Positions 8,123 to 57,699 are shown, counted from the stretch's first letter. The stretch: DNA of 57,766 nucleotides from a virus (IMGVR_UViG_3300043399_000632:1-57766); one strand, 5' to 3'. Numbers and translations: made by a program. The notes: generated by a model not told the origin, from the letters alone.

Positions 8123-8884
8123 TTATTCCTTTATATAAAAATAGTCTACAAATTTTGGATATGGAGATTTAATCCGATTCCGTATAGTCTCTTCAGACAC
8201 ACGTAACGCGTCTGCTGCGGCCTTAACCATTGAAAATTCCCCAAATGGCGTATGCACTGCCCTGGCCCTAGGGTGCTTGTCCCCAATACCGAACATATGG
8301 TTTTGCGCTCCGTATCTTTTTGAAGTTTCACGATGGTGTTTTCCAAAAAAAGGATTCATGTCTCCATTTTGGTCGCGTCTGTTCTCACTCATTAGTTTTT
8401 TAGAACTGTCTTTGTGATGTTTCCCATACATTCCGTTTTTGCTGCCGGCATTTTTCATTTTTTGGCGCTGTTCAGGAGTATGTCGATGACCAAAAGCAGA
8501 TGCCATTGGCCCTGTTTTTCCGTAATTTGGGTTGTTAACGCCTTGTTTTTGTGATCGTAACAATTCAATAGTCTTAGAGGAATGTTTCATTCCCTTCGTA
8601 GAACATGAAAATTTCGCAGAAGTTTGGCGGGCCTTGTTGTAAAATTTTGGATTAGTGTCTACACTAAATATTGAATGTAATAAAATCTCATGTGATAATG
8701 CGTCAGATCTAGTAGGCCACACTGCCAATACCGTTTTAGTAAACGATTCGCCAGTAAGTATTGCCTGGTTAACTGCCTTGCTTGAACTCATATAACAATC
8801 ATCACTGATAGCTAAATCGGTCGACCGTACACCGATATATGACTTCCCAGTAGTATCCTCGAGCCAATAAGTGTAATGATACAT
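8123..8884 (-). CDS. GIY-YIG homing endonuclease (Seg-like)
   Basis: A 253-residue freestanding endonuclease. An N-terminal GIY-YIG module is indicated by YTYWLEDTTGKSYIGVRS. A run of NUMOD3-type DNA-binding repeats follows (GMKHSSKTIELL, FGHRHTPEQRQKMK, MYGKHHKDSSKKL, FFGKHHRETSKRYG), and a C-terminal helix-turn-helix like IENR1 (ALRVSEETIRNRI). Such genes cut cognate alleles lacking them and spread their flanks. It is inserted between the 61-residue gene and uvsX, and its 3' end carries the uvsX ribosome site. It is intact, with no frameshift. Confidence 0.85.
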   Translation of the reverse strand: MYHYTYWLEDTTGKSYIGVRSTDLAISDDCYMSSSKAVNQAILTGESFTKTVLAVWPTRSDALSHEILLHSIFSVDTNPKFYNKARQTSAKFSCSTKGMKHSSKTIELLRSQKQGVNNPNYGKTGPMASAFGHRHTPEQRQKMKNAGSKNGMYGKHHKDSSKKLMSENRRDQNGDMNPFFGKHHRETSKRYGAQNHMFGIGDKHPRARAVHTPFGEFSMVKAAADALRVSEETIRNRIKSPYPKFVDYFYIKE

Positions 8885-10257: not shown

Positions 10258-12223
10258 ATCGTTTCAATCCGGACAATTTTCTTATTACGGCCAAATCATC
10301 TAGTGATTCTGAAACATCTTCGGCTGGCATGATGTTTTTATTAAAATCTTTACCACCTTCACCTTGATCTCCGATACCTTCGACTTTCTGTTTGATGTTT
10401 CCAACTAGCTCTTTTAATCTAGCTAATCCATCGTCAGCAACCCCTGCTGACTTTCCATGGCGAGATTCCCACTCACTTGTGAGTTTTTCCATGAAACTCT
10501 GTGCCAGTTGTCTTGCGGATTGTCCAGCTTGATCTCCGAACTTCTCGCTAATTTGCTTCTCAACATCTAGAGCAATGCCCTCCTCGCCACGGAATGGCCC
10601 AACTGTTGGATTATCTTTGTTGTAGAAACTTTTGACAATCTTAGCAACTTCTTTTACTAGCTGAGACTTGACCGATTCCTTTGGCATCATCGTATTTGGG
10701 GGGATCATATCAGTATTCTCTGCAGCTGGTTGCGGAACTTCAGCAGGTGATTGATCAGTAGGTGCTTCAGGCTCCGGAGCAGATTCTGGTTCTTCTTCAT
10801 TGCTCATGCCTAACGCAACTGCCAATTCTGGGTAATGCTGAGATGCCCAAGTTTGAAAAACATCCAAACCATTGGTTTCTGGATCAATCTCAGCGGCATT
10901 TGCCAAGGTAGATTTTAGATCATTGCTAAATTCAGGACTGCTATCGTCCAGCGCCACAGCGCCTGAGAAAAATTCCCATGATGTCTGACCATCGTCACCA
11001 AGTTCTAACTTGCCATCAGGTAATTCAGTTTCAATTGCTGTTTTTAGTGCTTCGATCTGATCATCGGTCAACTTACCTTGTTCAACTGATTCGGCCCACT
11101 GTTCGAAGGCAGCAAATGCTCCTTCTTTTACGTCATTGCACACACACTTGTCTACTGGTTTATCGCAACTATCACAGTGTTCGTCATCTCCTTCACTTAC
11201 GTAATCTTCCAGATTAATAGAGTTTGCTTCTCGCATGATGCTGTGAATCAGCGGGAAGTAAGCAGCAAGTTCTTCTTTGAAATTAGTTTCCGTAAACTTG
11301 CTTTTATAATCTTCCAGTGTAACAGCGTCTAATTCACTTAGCTCGTTGTCTAATGAATTCGATTGATCAAACTCGTTAATCCAAGACTCGTAGTGATGTC
11401 GCTTGCTTAGTAACTCGACTTGATTCTTTAGTTCCTGTAATCTACTAACAGCGCGATCAGTGATTCCAACAGCATCGTCGTGCAGTTGGCTATGTTGAAT
11501 CTTTCTTTGAAACTCTTGTAGTTGAGCAATTTGCTCGCTCATACGCATAATAGCTTTACCAGCTGGATCGTGAGGGACACCGCCATGATCCACATGCTGT
11601 GCCATAGCAAATGCTCCAGCTGGATGGATAAATGGATATTTAAATCTCTCACCATCTCTATTTTGAATAAAAATTGCTTTAATATTTTTACGTTGGCTTC
11701 TGCTACCTGGGTACATCTCGTCAACAGGTTTGTGATGCCTAACAATAACTTCAGTTGCTCCACGCACCGCGCGGCTAGTCTTTCTAGAACTCTTTTGATT
11801 CCAGCGTGATTCATTCATTGTTGTCATAGATTCTTCGTCCTTGGGAGCCTGTTTATTTGCTAGATATTGAAAATCATTGCGATCTAAGTTATTTTTAGCA
11901 ATATCTCGAGTATCAAACCTCAGCAATCTACGCATGGCAAACAACCGCATTTCTCTGAGGAAATTATACCAATACTTTTTGATCGCCTTGTCTTGATCTT
12001 CGGTAATACCTTGACTGTAATAGAGTTTTAGGCTGCCAGGATCATTTACGCTGATGCTGACTCTGCCCAATTTTACACCCTCGTGTACAAAGTCAAAATC
12101 AAAAAACTTGGCTTCTGCAGGGTCGATAGTAACAGCACCAGTCTCGTCACCCATTTCTAGATTTGAGAATCTACTGCGAACTTTATCAAAAATATCTTGG
12201 CTAATTATTTGTATAGGCTTCAT
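10256..12223 (-). CDS. Conserved large T4-like phage protein, putative virion or assembly protein
   Basis: A 655-residue protein of unknown exact role. Residues 1-115 form a compact mixed domain ending in a basic helix (YWYNFLREMRLFAMRRLLRF). The middle is helical and charged, with a CDSC...CVC zinc-knuckle-like motif near residue 350. A long acidic Pro/Glu/Ala linker and a helical C-terminus follow. It has its own late octamer 7 bases before the start and a terminator at the stop, so it is a monocistronic late unit beside the terminase. I looked for portal (gp20) features and did not find them. Confidence 0.6.
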   Translation of the reverse strand: MKPIQIISQDIFDKVRSRFSNLEMGDETGAVTIDPAEAKFFDFDFVHEGVKLGRVSISVNDPGSLKLYYSQGITEDQDKAIKKYWYNFLREMRLFAMRRLLRFDTRDIAKNNLDRNDFQYLANKQAPKDEESMTTMNESRWNQKSSRKTSRAVRGATEVIVRHHKPVDEMYPGSRSQRKNIKAIFIQNRDGERFKYPFIHPAGAFAMAQHVDHGGVPHDPAGKAIMRMSEQIAQLQEFQRKIQHSQLHDDAVGITDRAVSRLQELKNQVELLSKRHHYESWINEFDQSNSLDNELSELDAVTLEDYKSKFTETNFKEELAAYFPLIHSIMREANSINLEDYVSEGDDEHCDSCDKPVDKCVCNDVKEGAFAAFEQWAESVEQGKLTDDQIEALKTAIETELPDGKLELGDDGQTSWEFFSGAVALDDSSPEFSNDLKSTLANAAEIDPETNGLDVFQTWASQHYPELAVALGMSNEEEPESAPEPEAPTDQSPAEVPQPAAENTDMIPPNTMMPKESVKSQLVKEVAKIVKSFYNKDNPTVGPFRGEEGIALDVEKQISEKFGDQAGQSARQLAQSFMEKLTSEWESRHGKSAGVADDGLARLKELVGNIKQKVEGIGDQGEGGKDFNKNIMPAEDVSESLDDLAVIRKLSGLKR

Positions 12224-12230
12224 AATTAAA

Positions 12231-12238
12231 TATTTATC
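12231..12238 (-). promoter_or_regulatory. T4-late-type promoter GATAAATA
   Basis: GATAAATA ends 7 bases before the ATG of the 655-residue gene. If transcription starts about 6 bases beyond the octamer, as in T4 late promoters, the mRNA has essentially no leader. No Shine-Dalgarno sequence is present. Confidence 0.65.
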
Positions 12239-13337
12239 AATAATTTTGAATATAAATCGGCATGGGCATCAGCCATTCATCTTCATGCTCTTCTCGCATT
12301 TTATCATAAATTGCAGGATCCCAATCCTGCAACACCACTGTCATTCTAAGAGCGAGTAGAAGACTAGACACTAGATCATCGTGTTGTCCGCCTTTGGCTT
12401 CAAAACTAATACCTTTGGCCACAAATGTTTTTAGTTCAGAGATAAGTGGTTTTGAATTTATCTTTAGACGCTTACTTTCTATGAGGTGTTTGAGTTTAGC
12501 GCATATAGATATTTTAGACGAGTGAGTTGTATTAAACCCCTTTCTAAATCTGCGAACGTGACCCTTTCTAATAGGTTCACTTAAGAACAAACCGGGTATA
12601 GTCTCCTCTCCAATTTCGTTTATACACACTAGCGCCGCTTCGCCTACAGCATTGTTTTCTACACTGAAATAAATGCTGGGTTGGACGTGTTTAGCAGCGC
12701 ATTGATCGCTGATAAATTTACACAAATCTCGCAATATTCGGACTTGTCCCTGAACTGGTGTTAGATTATGGTGCCATTCTGCTACCTGATTAAACGTGGG
12801 TAGCTCGATAATTTGTATTGCTGCGTAGTCTCCGCCAGTTCCCAAACTAGGATCTAATGCCACTACGTATGTGTTATTAGGATTGATTTTCTTAAACCAC
12901 CGAGCTTGTCCCATTTTCATTATGGGTTCGGACCCGACTAGCTCAGACAGTCTGATACTGTTAATTAGTGTTTCGTCGAATACTAGGAATTCACAGTTTG
13001 AACTAACAACGTTATTAGTGTAATATCGATGGCCGTCTTCAACTTCTATTAGGTCGTACACCGGCGCCGATTGCCCTAACAATCTATTAGACACTACTCG
13101 CACTGAACCGGCCGAACTCATTACGAGATCGCCGGGCTTTAGTGATTTTGCTAGTCGATACTCTCTAGGTGAAACAAACAACTTGTGATCTAGTGTACAC
13201 TCTAGCCAGTTGTTGTTTTCAAATTCCAGGTACAGTAGGGGTTTTACACCCATTTCGCTCACACCAGCAAACGGTTTAAATCCCGAGGGTGTTAGAACTT
13301 CGTAGCCTGAATTATTTGGCTTAAAAATCTGTGTCAT
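12237..13337 (-). CDS. 17: Large terminase gp17 C-terminal half preceded by split-intein C-fragment
   Basis: A 366-residue protein. Residues 1-114 are an intein C-fragment: block B-like T48-L-D-H51, block F-like VYDLIEVEDGHRYY (93-106) and terminal VSSN (111-114). Residues 115-366 start with Cys+1 (CEFLVFDETL) and are the gp17 RNase H-like nuclease that cuts concatemers in packaging. Acidic residues are D162 in VVALDPSLGTGGDYAA, E227 in YFSVENN and D320-D321 in GGQHDDL. Alone it lacks the ATPase. With the upstream half, trans-splicing would give REHE-CEFL, the normal continuous sequence, and about 530 residues in all. The penultimate intein residue is Ser rather than the usual His. No strong ribosome site is seen. 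Confidence 0.93.
   Translation of the reverse strand: MTQIFKPNNSGYEVLTPSGFKPFAGVSEMGVKPLLYLEFENNNWLECTLDHKLFVSPREYRLAKSLKPGDLVMSSAGSVRVVSNRLLGQSAPVYDLIEVEDGHRYYTNNVVSSNCEFLVFDETLINSIRLSELVGSEPIMKMGQARWFKKINPNNTYVVALDPSLGTGGDYAAIQIIELPTFNQVAEWHHNLTPVQGQVRILRDLCKFISDQCAAKHVQPSIYFSVENNAVGEAALVCINEIGEETIPGLFLSEPIRKGHVRRFRKGFNTTHSSKISICAKLKHLIESKRLKINSKPLISELKTFVAKGISFEAKGGQHDDLVSSLLLALRMTVVLQDWDPAIYDKMREEHEDEWLMPMPIYIQNY
12996..13337 (-). other. Split-intein C-fragment (114 residues)
   Basis: The coding segment for the intein C-fragment at the start of the terminase C-terminal half. Codon 114 (Asn, 12996-12998) is followed by the Cys+1 codon (12993-12995). The fragment has the block B, F and G features of Hint-fold inteins and no endonuclease domain. 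Confidence 0.9.
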
Positions 13338-14325
13338 ATTCTAATATTTTGTAGTTGTTTTTATCTTCGAATAACCATAGCTCGTAGTTGTAACCTTTAG
13401 CAATTACAGATCGGCGTTTTCGCAAATTGTTTTCCAACCTAGAAGCGTATTTAACATCGCCATTTCCATCCCACCACCAACGACTTTTTACTTCGATAAT
13501 TCTATTTTCTGATGGGATGTATATGTCGGGGTAATACTTTAAATGATGACGCCGTGTGTCTACATATGCGAATATAGGTAATTGATACGCGGAATCGAAA
13601 TCATGTATTAGTAAATCGGACTCCGTGTATATAGTTAACAGTTTATCAATTACCAGATTTTCAAATCCTTTAATATGTAAAACTTTACCAGAAGGTAACG
13701 TGTATTCTCGACCTTTGGCATTTCCTTGACGACTGCGTTTTATAACATCCGGCTGAAGAAATGTGTTTTCTACTCCAAATCTTTCTAAATTTGTAGTCCG
13801 GCGTTTTTCATTGATCACGTTTTGCTCTTCGGCAGTTTTTGATCTGTTTTTCTCAGCAGATTTTTTGCTGTTGTTGTAATATTCGTTGCCGTACTTGTCA
13901 ATTTTAGTTTTCCTGGCAATGTCCTTATATTGGGCAGATTGTGTAACCCATTCAACACCGTACTTTTTCAAAAAAGTCTGTTTGGTAAGCTCGGTTTGTT
14001 TATCAATTTGTTCCTGTGTTTTTAACGAGGCTGCTAGTTTTTTTGCCCGCGAGTCGTTGGCTTTCTGTTCATCAGTCCAATTGGCTTTAGTGTTACTCAC
14101 AGTTTTACCTACACATTTGGGATTCCCGCAACTATTAGCATACGACTCTGATTTTTGATAAAAAGTTAAAGGCTTTCCGCAATCGCACAGAGGGGCGTAT
14201 CCAGTTACATATGTTTCGTAGTAACTTTGGTATGTCAAATTATTTTGCCTCAGGTGTCTAGAAAACTGTCCGTTGGTTTTACAGTACTTGGCATTATCGA
14301 TCTTTGATGTTATATATGTAGTCAT
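13321..14325 (-). CDS. Freestanding homing endonuclease inside the fractured terminase gene
   Basis: A 334-residue protein. Near the N-terminus are four Cys (C47, C49, C66, C71) that could bind zinc. Two tandem DNA-binding-type repeats follow (FLKKYGVEWVTQSAQ at 118-132 and NLERFGVENTFLQPD at 179-193). The C-terminal nuclease has E222, Y253-x-D, H260-H261, YYPD (264-267) and E278-V-K280, a PD-(D/E)xK or Vsr-like/EDxHD-type pattern. It lies exactly between the two terminase halves and overlaps the start of the second by 17 bases. It probably cuts uninterrupted terminase genes and drives spread of the whole split locus. Confidence 0.8.
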   Translation of the reverse strand: MTTYITSKIDNAKYCKTNGQFSRHLRQNNLTYQSYYETYVTGYAPLCDCGKPLTFYQKSESYANSCGNPKCVGKTVSNTKANWTDEQKANDSRAKKLAASLKTQEQIDKQTELTKQTFLKKYGVEWVTQSAQYKDIARKTKIDKYGNEYYNNSKKSAEKNRSKTAEEQNVINEKRRTTNLERFGVENTFLQPDVIKRSRQGNAKGREYTLPSGKVLHIKGFENLVIDKLLTIYTESDLLIHDFDSAYQLPIFAYVDTRRHHLKYYPDIYIPSENRIIEVKSRWWWDGNGDVKYASRLENNLRKRRSVIAKGYNYELWLFEDKNNYKILEYDTDF

Positions 14326-14337
14326 AATACTGGTATA

Positions 14338-15255
14338 TTAACACATCTTGAAAAACTCGCCTATCGAAATATCAAATATTCTACCATTGACATCGCGTAA
14401 TGTTATAACCGTTGTTTGCGCGCAACATTCATGCTCCCTTCGAAATCTTTCTTCCCCAATTCTGCTTCGCTCAGTATTTGCCCACTCTTCATCACGTTCC
14501 GGGTGTTCACTCCAATGCGCCTTAAAAGGAAAGAATCCGTTTCGCCCAACATCTTGTTCATTTCCAAATTCGTCAAACCTGTGATTTGCTTCTTTCCAAA
14601 TTTGAGCAAACTGGTCTTCGTCGCTATTCGGCGTACTGGTGATAATTGCTTTACCACCAGTTGCTAGTGTTGGCGAAATTGAGGTCCAGAATTCACTCGC
14701 TATATTGGGCGGTACGAACGCAAATTCGTCGGCATATAATAACGACAGACTCATACCACGACCAGTAGTTTCTGTGGTAGTTTGTGCTACAATTCTAGAA
14801 CCATTTTCAAACTCTAAACTCTGCTTGTTGTAGCTAACTACCCCAGCACGAATATGATTCGGGCATGATTCATAGGCATATCTAATTCTGCTCATAATTT
14901 CCTGAGCACCAGTGTGCTTGTGCGCAGCAACAAGGATAGTGCTATCTGGAACAAACATTGCGTACCAGAGCAAGTATCCAGCAGCAGTTGTAGTCTTGCC
15001 AGTCTGTCGAGGCAACAAATTTATGTTGAAACGATGAAAGTGATAGCTGTCTACTAACCGTTTTTGATAATCAAACGGTTGGTATCTCAATCTACCGCGA
15101 ACTGGATGTTGTATATAGAAAAAGTTGTCTAAAAAATAATGAGGGCCTGTGTTTGGATCACTACATGCCAGTAGTTCTTGTATGTCTTGTTCAGTATACT
15201 TCTGTGTGCTGTGAGCAACTTTTACAAGTTTATTGTCGATATTTTTGCTTCCCAT
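14338..15255 (-). CDS. 17: Large terminase gp17 N-terminal ATPase half ending in split-intein N-fragment
   Basis: Numbered from the first ATG (15270): the packaging ATPase has Walker A LPRQTGKTT (86-94), Walker B LSLLYADE (175-182) and coupling motif TSTP (211-214). It ends ...RREHE at residue 281. Residues 282-310 (CCAQTTVITL...FFKMC) are a 29-residue intein N-fragment with nucleophile Cys1, then TAA. Two starts are possible. The ATG at 15270 lies inside a late octamer, so the ATG at 15255 (MGSKNIDN), 5 bases after it, is preferred. Gp17 powers DNA translocation into the head. The missing nuclease is encoded at 12237-12995. Confidence 0.93.
   Translation of the reverse strand: MGSKNIDNKLVKVAHSTQKYTEQDIQELLACSDPNTGPHYFLDNFFYIQHPVRGRLRYQPFDYQKRLVDSYHFHRFNINLLPRQTGKTTTAAGYLLWYAMFVPDSTILVAAHKHTGAQEIMSRIRYAYESCPNHIRAGVVSYNKQSLEFENGSRIVAQTTTETTGRGMSLSLLYADEFAFVPPNIASEFWTSISPTLATGGKAIITSTPNSDEDQFAQIWKEANHRFDEFGNEQDVGRNGFFPFKAHWSEHPERDEEWANTERSRIGEERFRREHECCAQTTVITLRDVNGRIFDISIGEFFKMC
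14341..14427 (-). other. Split-intein N-fragment (29 residues)
   Basis: The coding segment from the Cys1 codon (14425-14427) to the last codon before TAA (14338-14340). Block A is recognisable (C-C-A-Q-T-T-V-I-T). At 29 residues it is far shorter than the roughly 90-100 of canonical split inteins, and close to the 25-residue N-fragment of the AceL-TerL intein. Confidence 0.88.
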
Positions 15256-15260
15256 ATGAA

Positions 15261-15268
15261 TATTTATC
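15261..15268 (-). promoter_or_regulatory. T4-late-type promoter GATAAATA of terminase
   Basis: GATAAATA ends 5 bases before the ATG at 15255. An upstream in-frame ATG (15268-15270) overlaps the octamer and is probably not translated. It sits right after the terminator at 15271-15296. Confidence 0.65.
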
Positions 15269-15270
15269 AT

Positions 15271-15296
15271 AAAAAATGGCCCATGCGGGCCATTTT
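15271..15296 (-). terminator. Rho-independent terminator between the 342-residue gene and terminase
   Basis: A 10-base-pair stem AAAATGGCCC / GGGCCATTTT with a 4-base loop, followed on the minus strand by six T. It ends the gp48/54-like to 342-residue gene operon, immediately upstream of the terminase late promoter. Confidence 0.9.
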
Positions 15297-15315
15297 AGAA
15301 GTCACTTAGACTGGC

Positions 15316-56930: not shown

Positions 56931-57623
56931 TTAGGCATTAGAAACACTAACAGTGCCAGTAGTAGCAGCTGCCATACTCCAACGAGTAACGGCACCGGTC
57001 GCATACTCGTAGCTGCCAACCATTGCTTTTCTGGTTAGATATGCCTTGCGGCTAGTTAGTTTAGTAACATAGTAACTACTACCATTCACATCAGTGGCCA
57101 GGATGTTCATTTCACCTTCAGCAGCAGGAGCAGCGGCAACTAAGCTACATGTGCCAACTCCGTCAGCATTCTGAACTAGATAGCGGGCAGTGCCTTCCTG
57201 CTTCATGATATCAGCAGATTTGGCAGCGAGACCGCCTGTGACCCAAGCACTTACACTAATACCCTCCTGACGAGTTGTGGTTAGTGCGATAGTGAAGGTT
57301 GCGGTAGTGCCAGTTGTTCCACCGTTAACGGTGGCGGTTGGAGTAGAAGTGTATCCGCTACCCGCTTTTAACAGTGTAACAGTAGCGATGTTACCACTTG
57401 CGTTAGTTGTTACACGACCAGTTGCGCGACCACTTGTGCCACCAATTTGCGGCGCACTAAATGTCAAGTTCAGCGTAGTACTAGTAGTATACAACGTACC
57501 AGAGTTCAGTACTGTGATACTAGCAACACCTTCACCACCAACACCAGTTGGTCCACCGGTGGCTTGATCTTGATACGGATCGTTTAAGTTAGCGAAAAAC
57601 GATTTTTTAATCGGACGTCCCAT
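56931..57623 (-). CDS. Virion structural protein with Gly/Thr repeat domains
   Basis: A 230-residue protein beginning MGRPIKKSFFANLNDPYQD. Residues about 33-112 have two strand-turn units ending in GSGYTSTPTATVNGG and LNSGTLYTTST, the repeat type of phage tail and decoration proteins. The C-terminal half (SADIMKQEGTARYLVQNADG) is a compact mixed domain. A perfect TATAAATA lies upstream with a strong GAGGAG ribosome site and a structured leader of about 70 bases, so very high late expression is expected. A major virion decoration protein is likely. Confidence 0.65.
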   Translation of the reverse strand: MGRPIKKSFFANLNDPYQDQATGGPTGVGGEGVASITVLNSGTLYTTSTTLNLTFSAPQIGGTSGRATGRVTTNASGNIATVTLLKAGSGYTSTPTATVNGGTTGTTATFTIALTTTRQEGISVSAWVTGGLAAKSADIMKQEGTARYLVQNADGVGTCSLVAAAPAAEGEMNILATDVNGSSYYVTKLTSRKAYLTRKAMVGSYEYATGAVTRWSMAAATTGTVSVSNA

Positions 57624-57699
57624 TTTGTTTCTCCTCAGTTAAGACAGTTCTATTGCCTACGCGGTGGGTGCCGCATAAACCCCTTGCGGGCGAACAATA
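57624..57699 (-). promoter_or_regulatory. Structured leader of the 230-residue structural gene
   Basis: About 76 bases between late promoter and ATG, with a GAGGAG ribosome site near the start codon and a small GC-rich hairpin (GCGG/CCGC, 57661-57674) in the middle. It is the longest late leader in the window. Confidence 0.5.

Follow-up and report, generated by a model that had tools for sequence, protein, structure and literature searches.

The window analysed here is IMG/VR virus record IMGVR_UViG_3300043399_000632, a linear 57.8-kb fragment (57,766 nucleotides) in which two minus-strand genes, with an endonuclease gene in the gap between them, each encode one part of a large terminase (TerL) of the T4 type. 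With a probability of roughly 0.9, we consider terL to be split by a mobile element consisting of an N-terminal intein fragment (IntN), an endonuclease, and a C-terminal intein fragment (IntC), the two terminase halves being rejoined by protein trans-splicing and the endonuclease homing. The phage would make two proteins, TerL(1–281)-IntN and IntC-TerL(282–533); the 29-residue IntN and the 114-residue IntC would then associate to form a class 1 Hint domain, which would excise itself by way of Cys1, the C-terminal Asn, and Cys+1, and thereby ligate the halves into a terminase of 533 amino acids. Alleles of terL without the element are the predicted target of the endonuclease, whose cut would be repaired from the interrupted copy so that the whole element is inserted (homing). 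The parts of the locus are as follows.

14428–15270, minus strand: TerL N-extein (ATPase half, residues 1–281, ending ...FRREHE); Terminase_6N, 3.4e-13, and phrog_36964, 2.8e-66.
14338–14427, minus strand: IntN, 29 amino acids (CCAQTTVITLRDVNGRIFDISIGEFFKMC) plus stop codon; begins exactly at the insertion point seen in relatives.
13321–14325, minus strand: free-standing endonuclease gene, 334 amino acids; Pfam DUF7487, 1.2e-30.
13321–13337, minus strand: 17-nt overlap, with the IntC start codon inside the end of the endonuclease gene; read from the sequence, and likewise present in many relatives.
12996–13337, minus strand: IntC, 114 amino acids, ending VVSSN; CatC (6dsl_B), E value 2.2e-11.
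12237–12995, minus strand: TerL C-extein (nuclease half), 252 amino acids plus stop codon, with Cys+1 first (CEFLVFDETL); Terminase_6C, 4.9e-8.

The first open reading frame (ORF; 14338–15270, minus strand) thus has 310 codons for TerL 1–281 and IntN, and its true start may be the ATG five codons in (MGSKNID), like that of a related locus, L202. Twelve nucleotides separate the IntN stop codon from the endonuclease ORF, and the third ORF (12237–13337, minus strand) is a 366 amino acid fusion of IntC to TerL 282–533. The element sits exactly between terL codons 281 and 282. This three-ORF layout over positions 12237–15270 had been proposed in an earlier reading of the same DNA (the original prediction), and our ORF reading agreed with it to the residue, its terminase of about 530 residues being the 533 residues of the joined exteins. 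Both TerL halves were assigned to the T4-type terminase by Pfam and PHROGs. The closest TerL among named phages is the uninterrupted protein of the Pseudomonas jumbo phages PA5oct/MIJ3, to which the N-extein is 61% and the C-extein 51% identical; the C-extein is 75–81% identical to its nearest uninterrupted relatives among viral contigs. No near-identical phage record was found.

Viral contigs were searched with both TerL halves, yielding 157 locus rows that are uninterrupted at the insertion point, a redundant set in which some contigs appear twice. Nearly all of these have a gap of 0 nt and mostly read REH(E/D/N)-CEFL or a close variant, bearing out the originally predicted REHE-CEFL junction; nothing is missing from the uninterrupted relatives at the exact insertion point. 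A tree built on 161 distinct TerL C-halves nests the window among relatives without interruption; in it, the presence of the intein changes state 20 times, at least 10 of the changes being forced by well supported branches. These proportions are not frequencies because sampling favoured TerLs close to that of the window. Chance and a frameshift artefact, as well as the sequencing error that the original prediction had named as grounds for its own rejection, were ruled out because the same gene order and splice-point residues recur in dozens of contigs beside the 157 uninterrupted rows.

The Hint profile search that had been suggested as a check was successful only in part: IntC matched the PT-HINT (6.6e-6) and Intein_splicing (6.9e-5) models, both under their curated cut-offs, and IntN alone had no match in Pfam or the other hidden Markov model libraries. 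The case for an intein rests therefore on the homologues and on the match of IntC to the solved structure of CatC, the consensus atypical split intein, which is its best solved sequence relative. Among relatives interrupted at this point in terL, all 30 distinct IntN sequences have Cys1, and the block-B His, the block-F Asp, the terminal Asn, and Cys+1 are each present in all 39 distinct IntC sequences, confirming the Cys-first IntN and the Asn/Cys+1 boundary of the original prediction. The window itself has C1, the block-B T-L-D-H (TxxH), the C-terminal Asn, and Cys+1, all features of class 1. At three loci (L021, L023, and L025) the intein is unsplit and in frame at the window's terL site. 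The model of the L021 intein (predicted local distance difference test, pLDDT, 96; predicted template modelling score, pTM, 0.87) gave Foldseek matches to the Mtu RecA intein (1.3e-8), VidaL (template modelling score 0.86), and Cat (9.6e-6), and by this model of a cis homologue, the terL-site intein is predicted to have the Hint fold. The ratio of nonsynonymous to synonymous substitution (dN/dS) in IntC was 0.08–0.14 in three pairs of relatives and 0.30 in a fourth; IntC is thus under purifying selection in relatives where synonymous sites are unsaturated. Between the window and its nearest element relatives (L002 and L046), synonymous sites were saturated.

The gap does contain a complete 334-residue endonuclease ORF, as had been predicted. 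Beyond its DUF7487 match it has a weak match to a PHROG homing endonuclease (3.2e-5), and it consists of an N-terminal Cys-rich/repeat region and a C-terminal PD-(D/E)XK-like domain (E222...P266-D267...E278-V-K280); Cys47/49/66/71 and E222...PD267...E278xK280 are common to five aligned homologues. The nuclease motif of the window, PDIYIP...IIEVKSRWWW, is of the ExK type, and the EDxHD motif (Vsr-like, I-Bth0305I-type) was sought in it and is not present. The likeness to the first-described fractured genes therefore held for a nuclease in the gap but not for its type, though one relative, L019, does have an EDxHD-like nuclease domain (IECNGTYWH; match to 3r3p, E value 0.012) on a homologous N-terminal domain (hhalign, 99.8%). 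We take 3r3p to be I-Bth0305I. Because L019 pairs a window-type N-terminal domain with a Vsr-like nuclease domain, nuclease domains have apparently been exchanged on a shared N-terminal domain. Close copies of the endonuclease, defined by at least 47% identity, were in this terL gap at 27 of 27 loci, and distant ones at 0 of 53. Two further loci with TerLs close to the window's (L129 and L202) have a different split intein and, as judged by eye, an HNH-like endonuclease at the same insertion point. We also note that at the same terL site, L030 (602–2290) has a GIY-YIG-like endonuclease in one ORF with IntC-TerL-C. No mention of DUF7487, and hence no published link to fractured genes, was seen in the literature searched.

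Movement of the element is clearest in L004 and L005, whose inserts are essentially identical throughout (about 100% in the columns compared), whereas the terL flanks are 82–85% identical on the N side and 65–87% on the C side; on either side, the nearest flank mismatch is 11 nt from the insertion point. Three other pairs point the same way in nucleotide identity of IntC vs C-extein: 0.91 vs 0.68 for L033/L035, 0.90 vs 0.74 for L036/L057, and 0.84 vs 0.66 for L044/L052. The tree of endonuclease plus IntC and that of the TerL C-half reject each other (approximately unbiased test, p 5e-6 and 1.4e-6). Judged from these comparisons, the element is a mobile fractured gene, because near-identical elements lie in diverged terL genes, the boundaries fall within 11 nt, and the endonuclease is exclusive to the gap. 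Relatives also form a series of decay, from an intact endonuclease through the nuclease domain only (L004–L006, with a further deletion in the remnant of L005) to a 34-codon stub (L016/L017) and about 20 relic codons (L007); in L020, the endonuclease has been lost but for its last codons, now fused to the end of IntN (KKVLSDDSDL). The split, in other words, outlasts loss of the endonuclease. The stretch just upstream of the IntC start tends to survive, and could hold the translation start region.

The spread of the locus foreseen in the original prediction is thus borne out by the trees and the L004/L005 transfer; its attribution to the endonuclease is less secure, the protein being truncated in both loci. 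The alternative with the best claim, one we nevertheless consider improbable, is that the split intein and trans-splicing are real but that the endonuclease is a passenger, not homing to terL, and the element was spread by ordinary phage recombination. Transfer with a truncated endonuclease would fit, as would a nuclease activity that is only predicted. However, close copies are found at this site only, the transfer boundaries at most 11 nt from the insertion point are unlike long random tracts, and in L129 and L202 this site is occupied by another split intein, paired with a different, HNH-like endonuclease.

Less probable by far is that the locus is a dying or dead remnant, with terL broken and a second, intact terL elsewhere doing the work. 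The record is a fragment, and relatives with eroded endonucleases exist; but the exteins, IntC, and the endonuclease all have open, conserved reading frames, the splice residues are intact, IntC is under purifying selection in relatives, and no second terL was found within the 57.8-kb window, which settles for that stretch of a fragmentary record the original concern about an intact second gp17 gene.

In some relatives, terL lies in more pieces or in scattered ones. Four genes with three split inteins encode the terminase of L016 (2298–5671) and L031 (375–6246). The breaks in L016 are at Walker A (after RQLGK), at Walker B (LLY-..CDE, the hyphen marking the break), and at REH-C, where only a stub of the endonuclease is left; L031 has kept three endonuclease-like genes. 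Three genes and two split inteins, with an endonuclease-like gene in each gap, were found in L018 (2691–7083), L046 (2–4397), L048 (1685–6086), and L028 (1207–5458), the first gap holding, as judged by eye, a Vsr-like EDxHD protein in L018 and L046 and a GIY-YIG protein in L028. Among isolates, Campylobacter phage NCTC12673 has TerL-N plus IntN (...FIDE-CVAGDTKITV...) at ~46 kb on the minus strand (L278) and IntC-TerL-C at 72.9 kb on the plus strand (L272), the latter unannotated in the record. Because these halves lie 26 kb apart on opposite strands, protein trans-splicing is the simplest route by which they could be joined. In Salicola phage SCTP-2 (L275, L279, and L281), TerL is at three loci (~256, 217, and 430 kb) on both strands, with fragments of split inteins where it is broken and one cis intein inside the last piece; no published report of this three-locus TerL was found. 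Both isolates are broken at terL sites other than the window's, with related inteins, and ordinary RNA cis-splicing cannot join their TerL pieces. Shigella phage JK32 (L270, 1257–3008) has TerL-N, IntN, and an endonuclease-like stretch fused in one 583 amino acid ORF, followed by IntC-TerL-C, and is probably a fractured gene with the endonuclease joined to the N-half.

Two further explanations have very little left to recommend them. That the window's halves are joined as RNA, with the gap forming a self-splicing intron (group I or II), or a portion of one, that includes the endonuclease, has precedents in terL RNA splicing with endonuclease genes in ICP1 (PMC10448857) and the Jug phages (PMC12363816). 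Against it, Rfam matched nothing in the window but a freshwater-2 RNA, and nothing at E ≤ 1 between 12200 and 15320; intein fragments with invariant splice residues stand where the reading frames stop and start; and the unsplit forms found at this site are inteins read in frame. An equally slight chance attaches to a two-subunit terminase held together non-covalently, with no ligation and the Hint halves only a docking device, for which PMC3322345 cites the genes-in-pieces ribonucleotide reductase of a T4-type phage as a known case, but C1, Asn, and Cys+1 would then need no invariance, and these nucleophiles are kept even at loci without the endonuclease (L007 and L020).

Several points do weigh against trans-splicing and homing at the window's locus. 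We infer, rather than observe, trans-splicing in the cell, cutting of the DNA at the empty site, and the dependence of packaging on splicing, and a homing role is suggested indirectly, by the exclusive location, scattered distribution, and transfer of the element. In L004/L005, the pair that shows transfer most clearly, only the nuclease domain of the endonuclease is left; the element may have moved before that truncation, or by ordinary recombination. The fold proposed for the endonuclease is weak, coming from a low-confidence model (pLDDT 65) whose Foldseek list is rich in PD-(D/E)XK nucleases (RecE, SSO0001, Vsr, PvuRts1I, and Hjc), none of them at E ≤ 0.001; neither did a comparison with PDB sequences, including a profile search, give a match. 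The penultimate residue of the intein is Ser in 36 of 39 distinct homologues, including the window, the usual His being absent, and Ser in place of that His can slow Asn cyclisation in other inteins. A penultimate His is common in class 1 inteins but not universal, and so is not strictly defining. Finally, the record covers only a fragment, and the rest of the genome may hold an intact terL.

A broader proposal strikes us as no better than an even bet: that the element is a unit dedicated to fracturing genes, in which an endonuclease lineage with an exchangeable nuclease domain is bound to a single codon boundary of terL and precise transfer makes two genes of an intact essential one, and that with split inteins at Walker A and Walker B, relatives assemble one terminase from up to four polypeptides by up to three parallel trans-splicing reactions (L016/L017 and L031), in some isolates from scattered genes (SCTP-2). 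If the element does act by trans-splicing and homing, an essential packaging motor would exist only after two proteins have spliced, leaving packaging dependent on a selfish element. The relatives are a natural series (empty site, unsplit intein, and split intein with an intact, truncated, or vanished endonuclease) that, together with the precise transfer event, would open to direct test how split inteins arise and what becomes of them. A further return is a large number of new short-IntN split inteins of use in protein engineering, some of which apparently work alongside one another within a single protein.

A scan of the locus for sigma-70 promoters and terminators gave no excess over shuffled sequences. 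By eye, a terminator-like hairpin (AAATGGCCCGCATGGGCCATTTTTT) lies directly before terL (15255–15300, minus strand), followed by a late-promoter-like motif, ATAAATATT, that also precedes the gene at 12223. Elsewhere in the window is a second homing endonuclease gene (8123–8884, minus strand), GIY-YIG-like with NUMOD3 (2.8e-10), between the genes for a UvsX-like recombinase and a single-strand binding protein. The freshwater-2 RNA (57621–57693, minus strand; Rfam RF02980, 52.6 bits), of a cis-regulatory class, is at the window edge, just upstream of the gene at 56931–57623.

Fractured genes and atypical TerL split inteins are already established; new here is a member with a DUF7487 nuclease, and the greater surprises are in its relatives, where the element has been transferred precisely, nuclease domains have apparently been exchanged, and terminases come in three or four pieces. 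Dassa and colleagues reportedly described, in 2009, genes fractured by split inteins with an endonuclease in the gap, and at half of those first loci found that nuclease to be of the Vsr-like EDxHD kind. In those genes, as in the window, a conserved phage enzyme gene is broken by a split intein with a free-standing endonuclease between the halves; in the window, complementary intein fragments flank the break, the endonuclease lies between them, and uninterrupted homologues are joined exactly there. The window differs in that its enzyme is TerL and its nuclease a DUF7487 protein with a PD-(D/E)XK-like motif. Among terminase split inteins, AceL-TerL, Cat, and GOS-TerL have IntN/IntC lengths of 25/104, 30/104, and 37/115 amino acids (PMC11766414), and the 29/114 of the window follows the same pattern of a short IntN (25–37 amino acids) and a long IntC (104–115 amino acids), which together with the CatC match supports an AceL/Cat type, AceL-TerL being the example that the original prediction had cited. 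Cys1 and Cys+1 are shared with AceL and Cat, whereas the window's sequence is new and has Ser before the terminal Asn. The layout is also that of the AceL NrdHF fractured gene, which has a GIY-YIG endonuclease in its gap and for which trans-splicing has been shown in vitro (PMC7891396), but there the intein is of class 3, in nrdHF, with a typical split site, and the nuclease is of another type. Pseudomonas phage MIJ3, one of the closest named TerL relatives, also combines a split intein with an endonuclease (HNH; PMC6892783), but in PolB, its terL being uninterrupted. By their descriptions as inteins within terL, those of Salmonella Maynard, Acinetobacter TaPaz, Campylobacter IBB_35, and Klebsiella Rak2 interrupt the same gene as does the element of the window.

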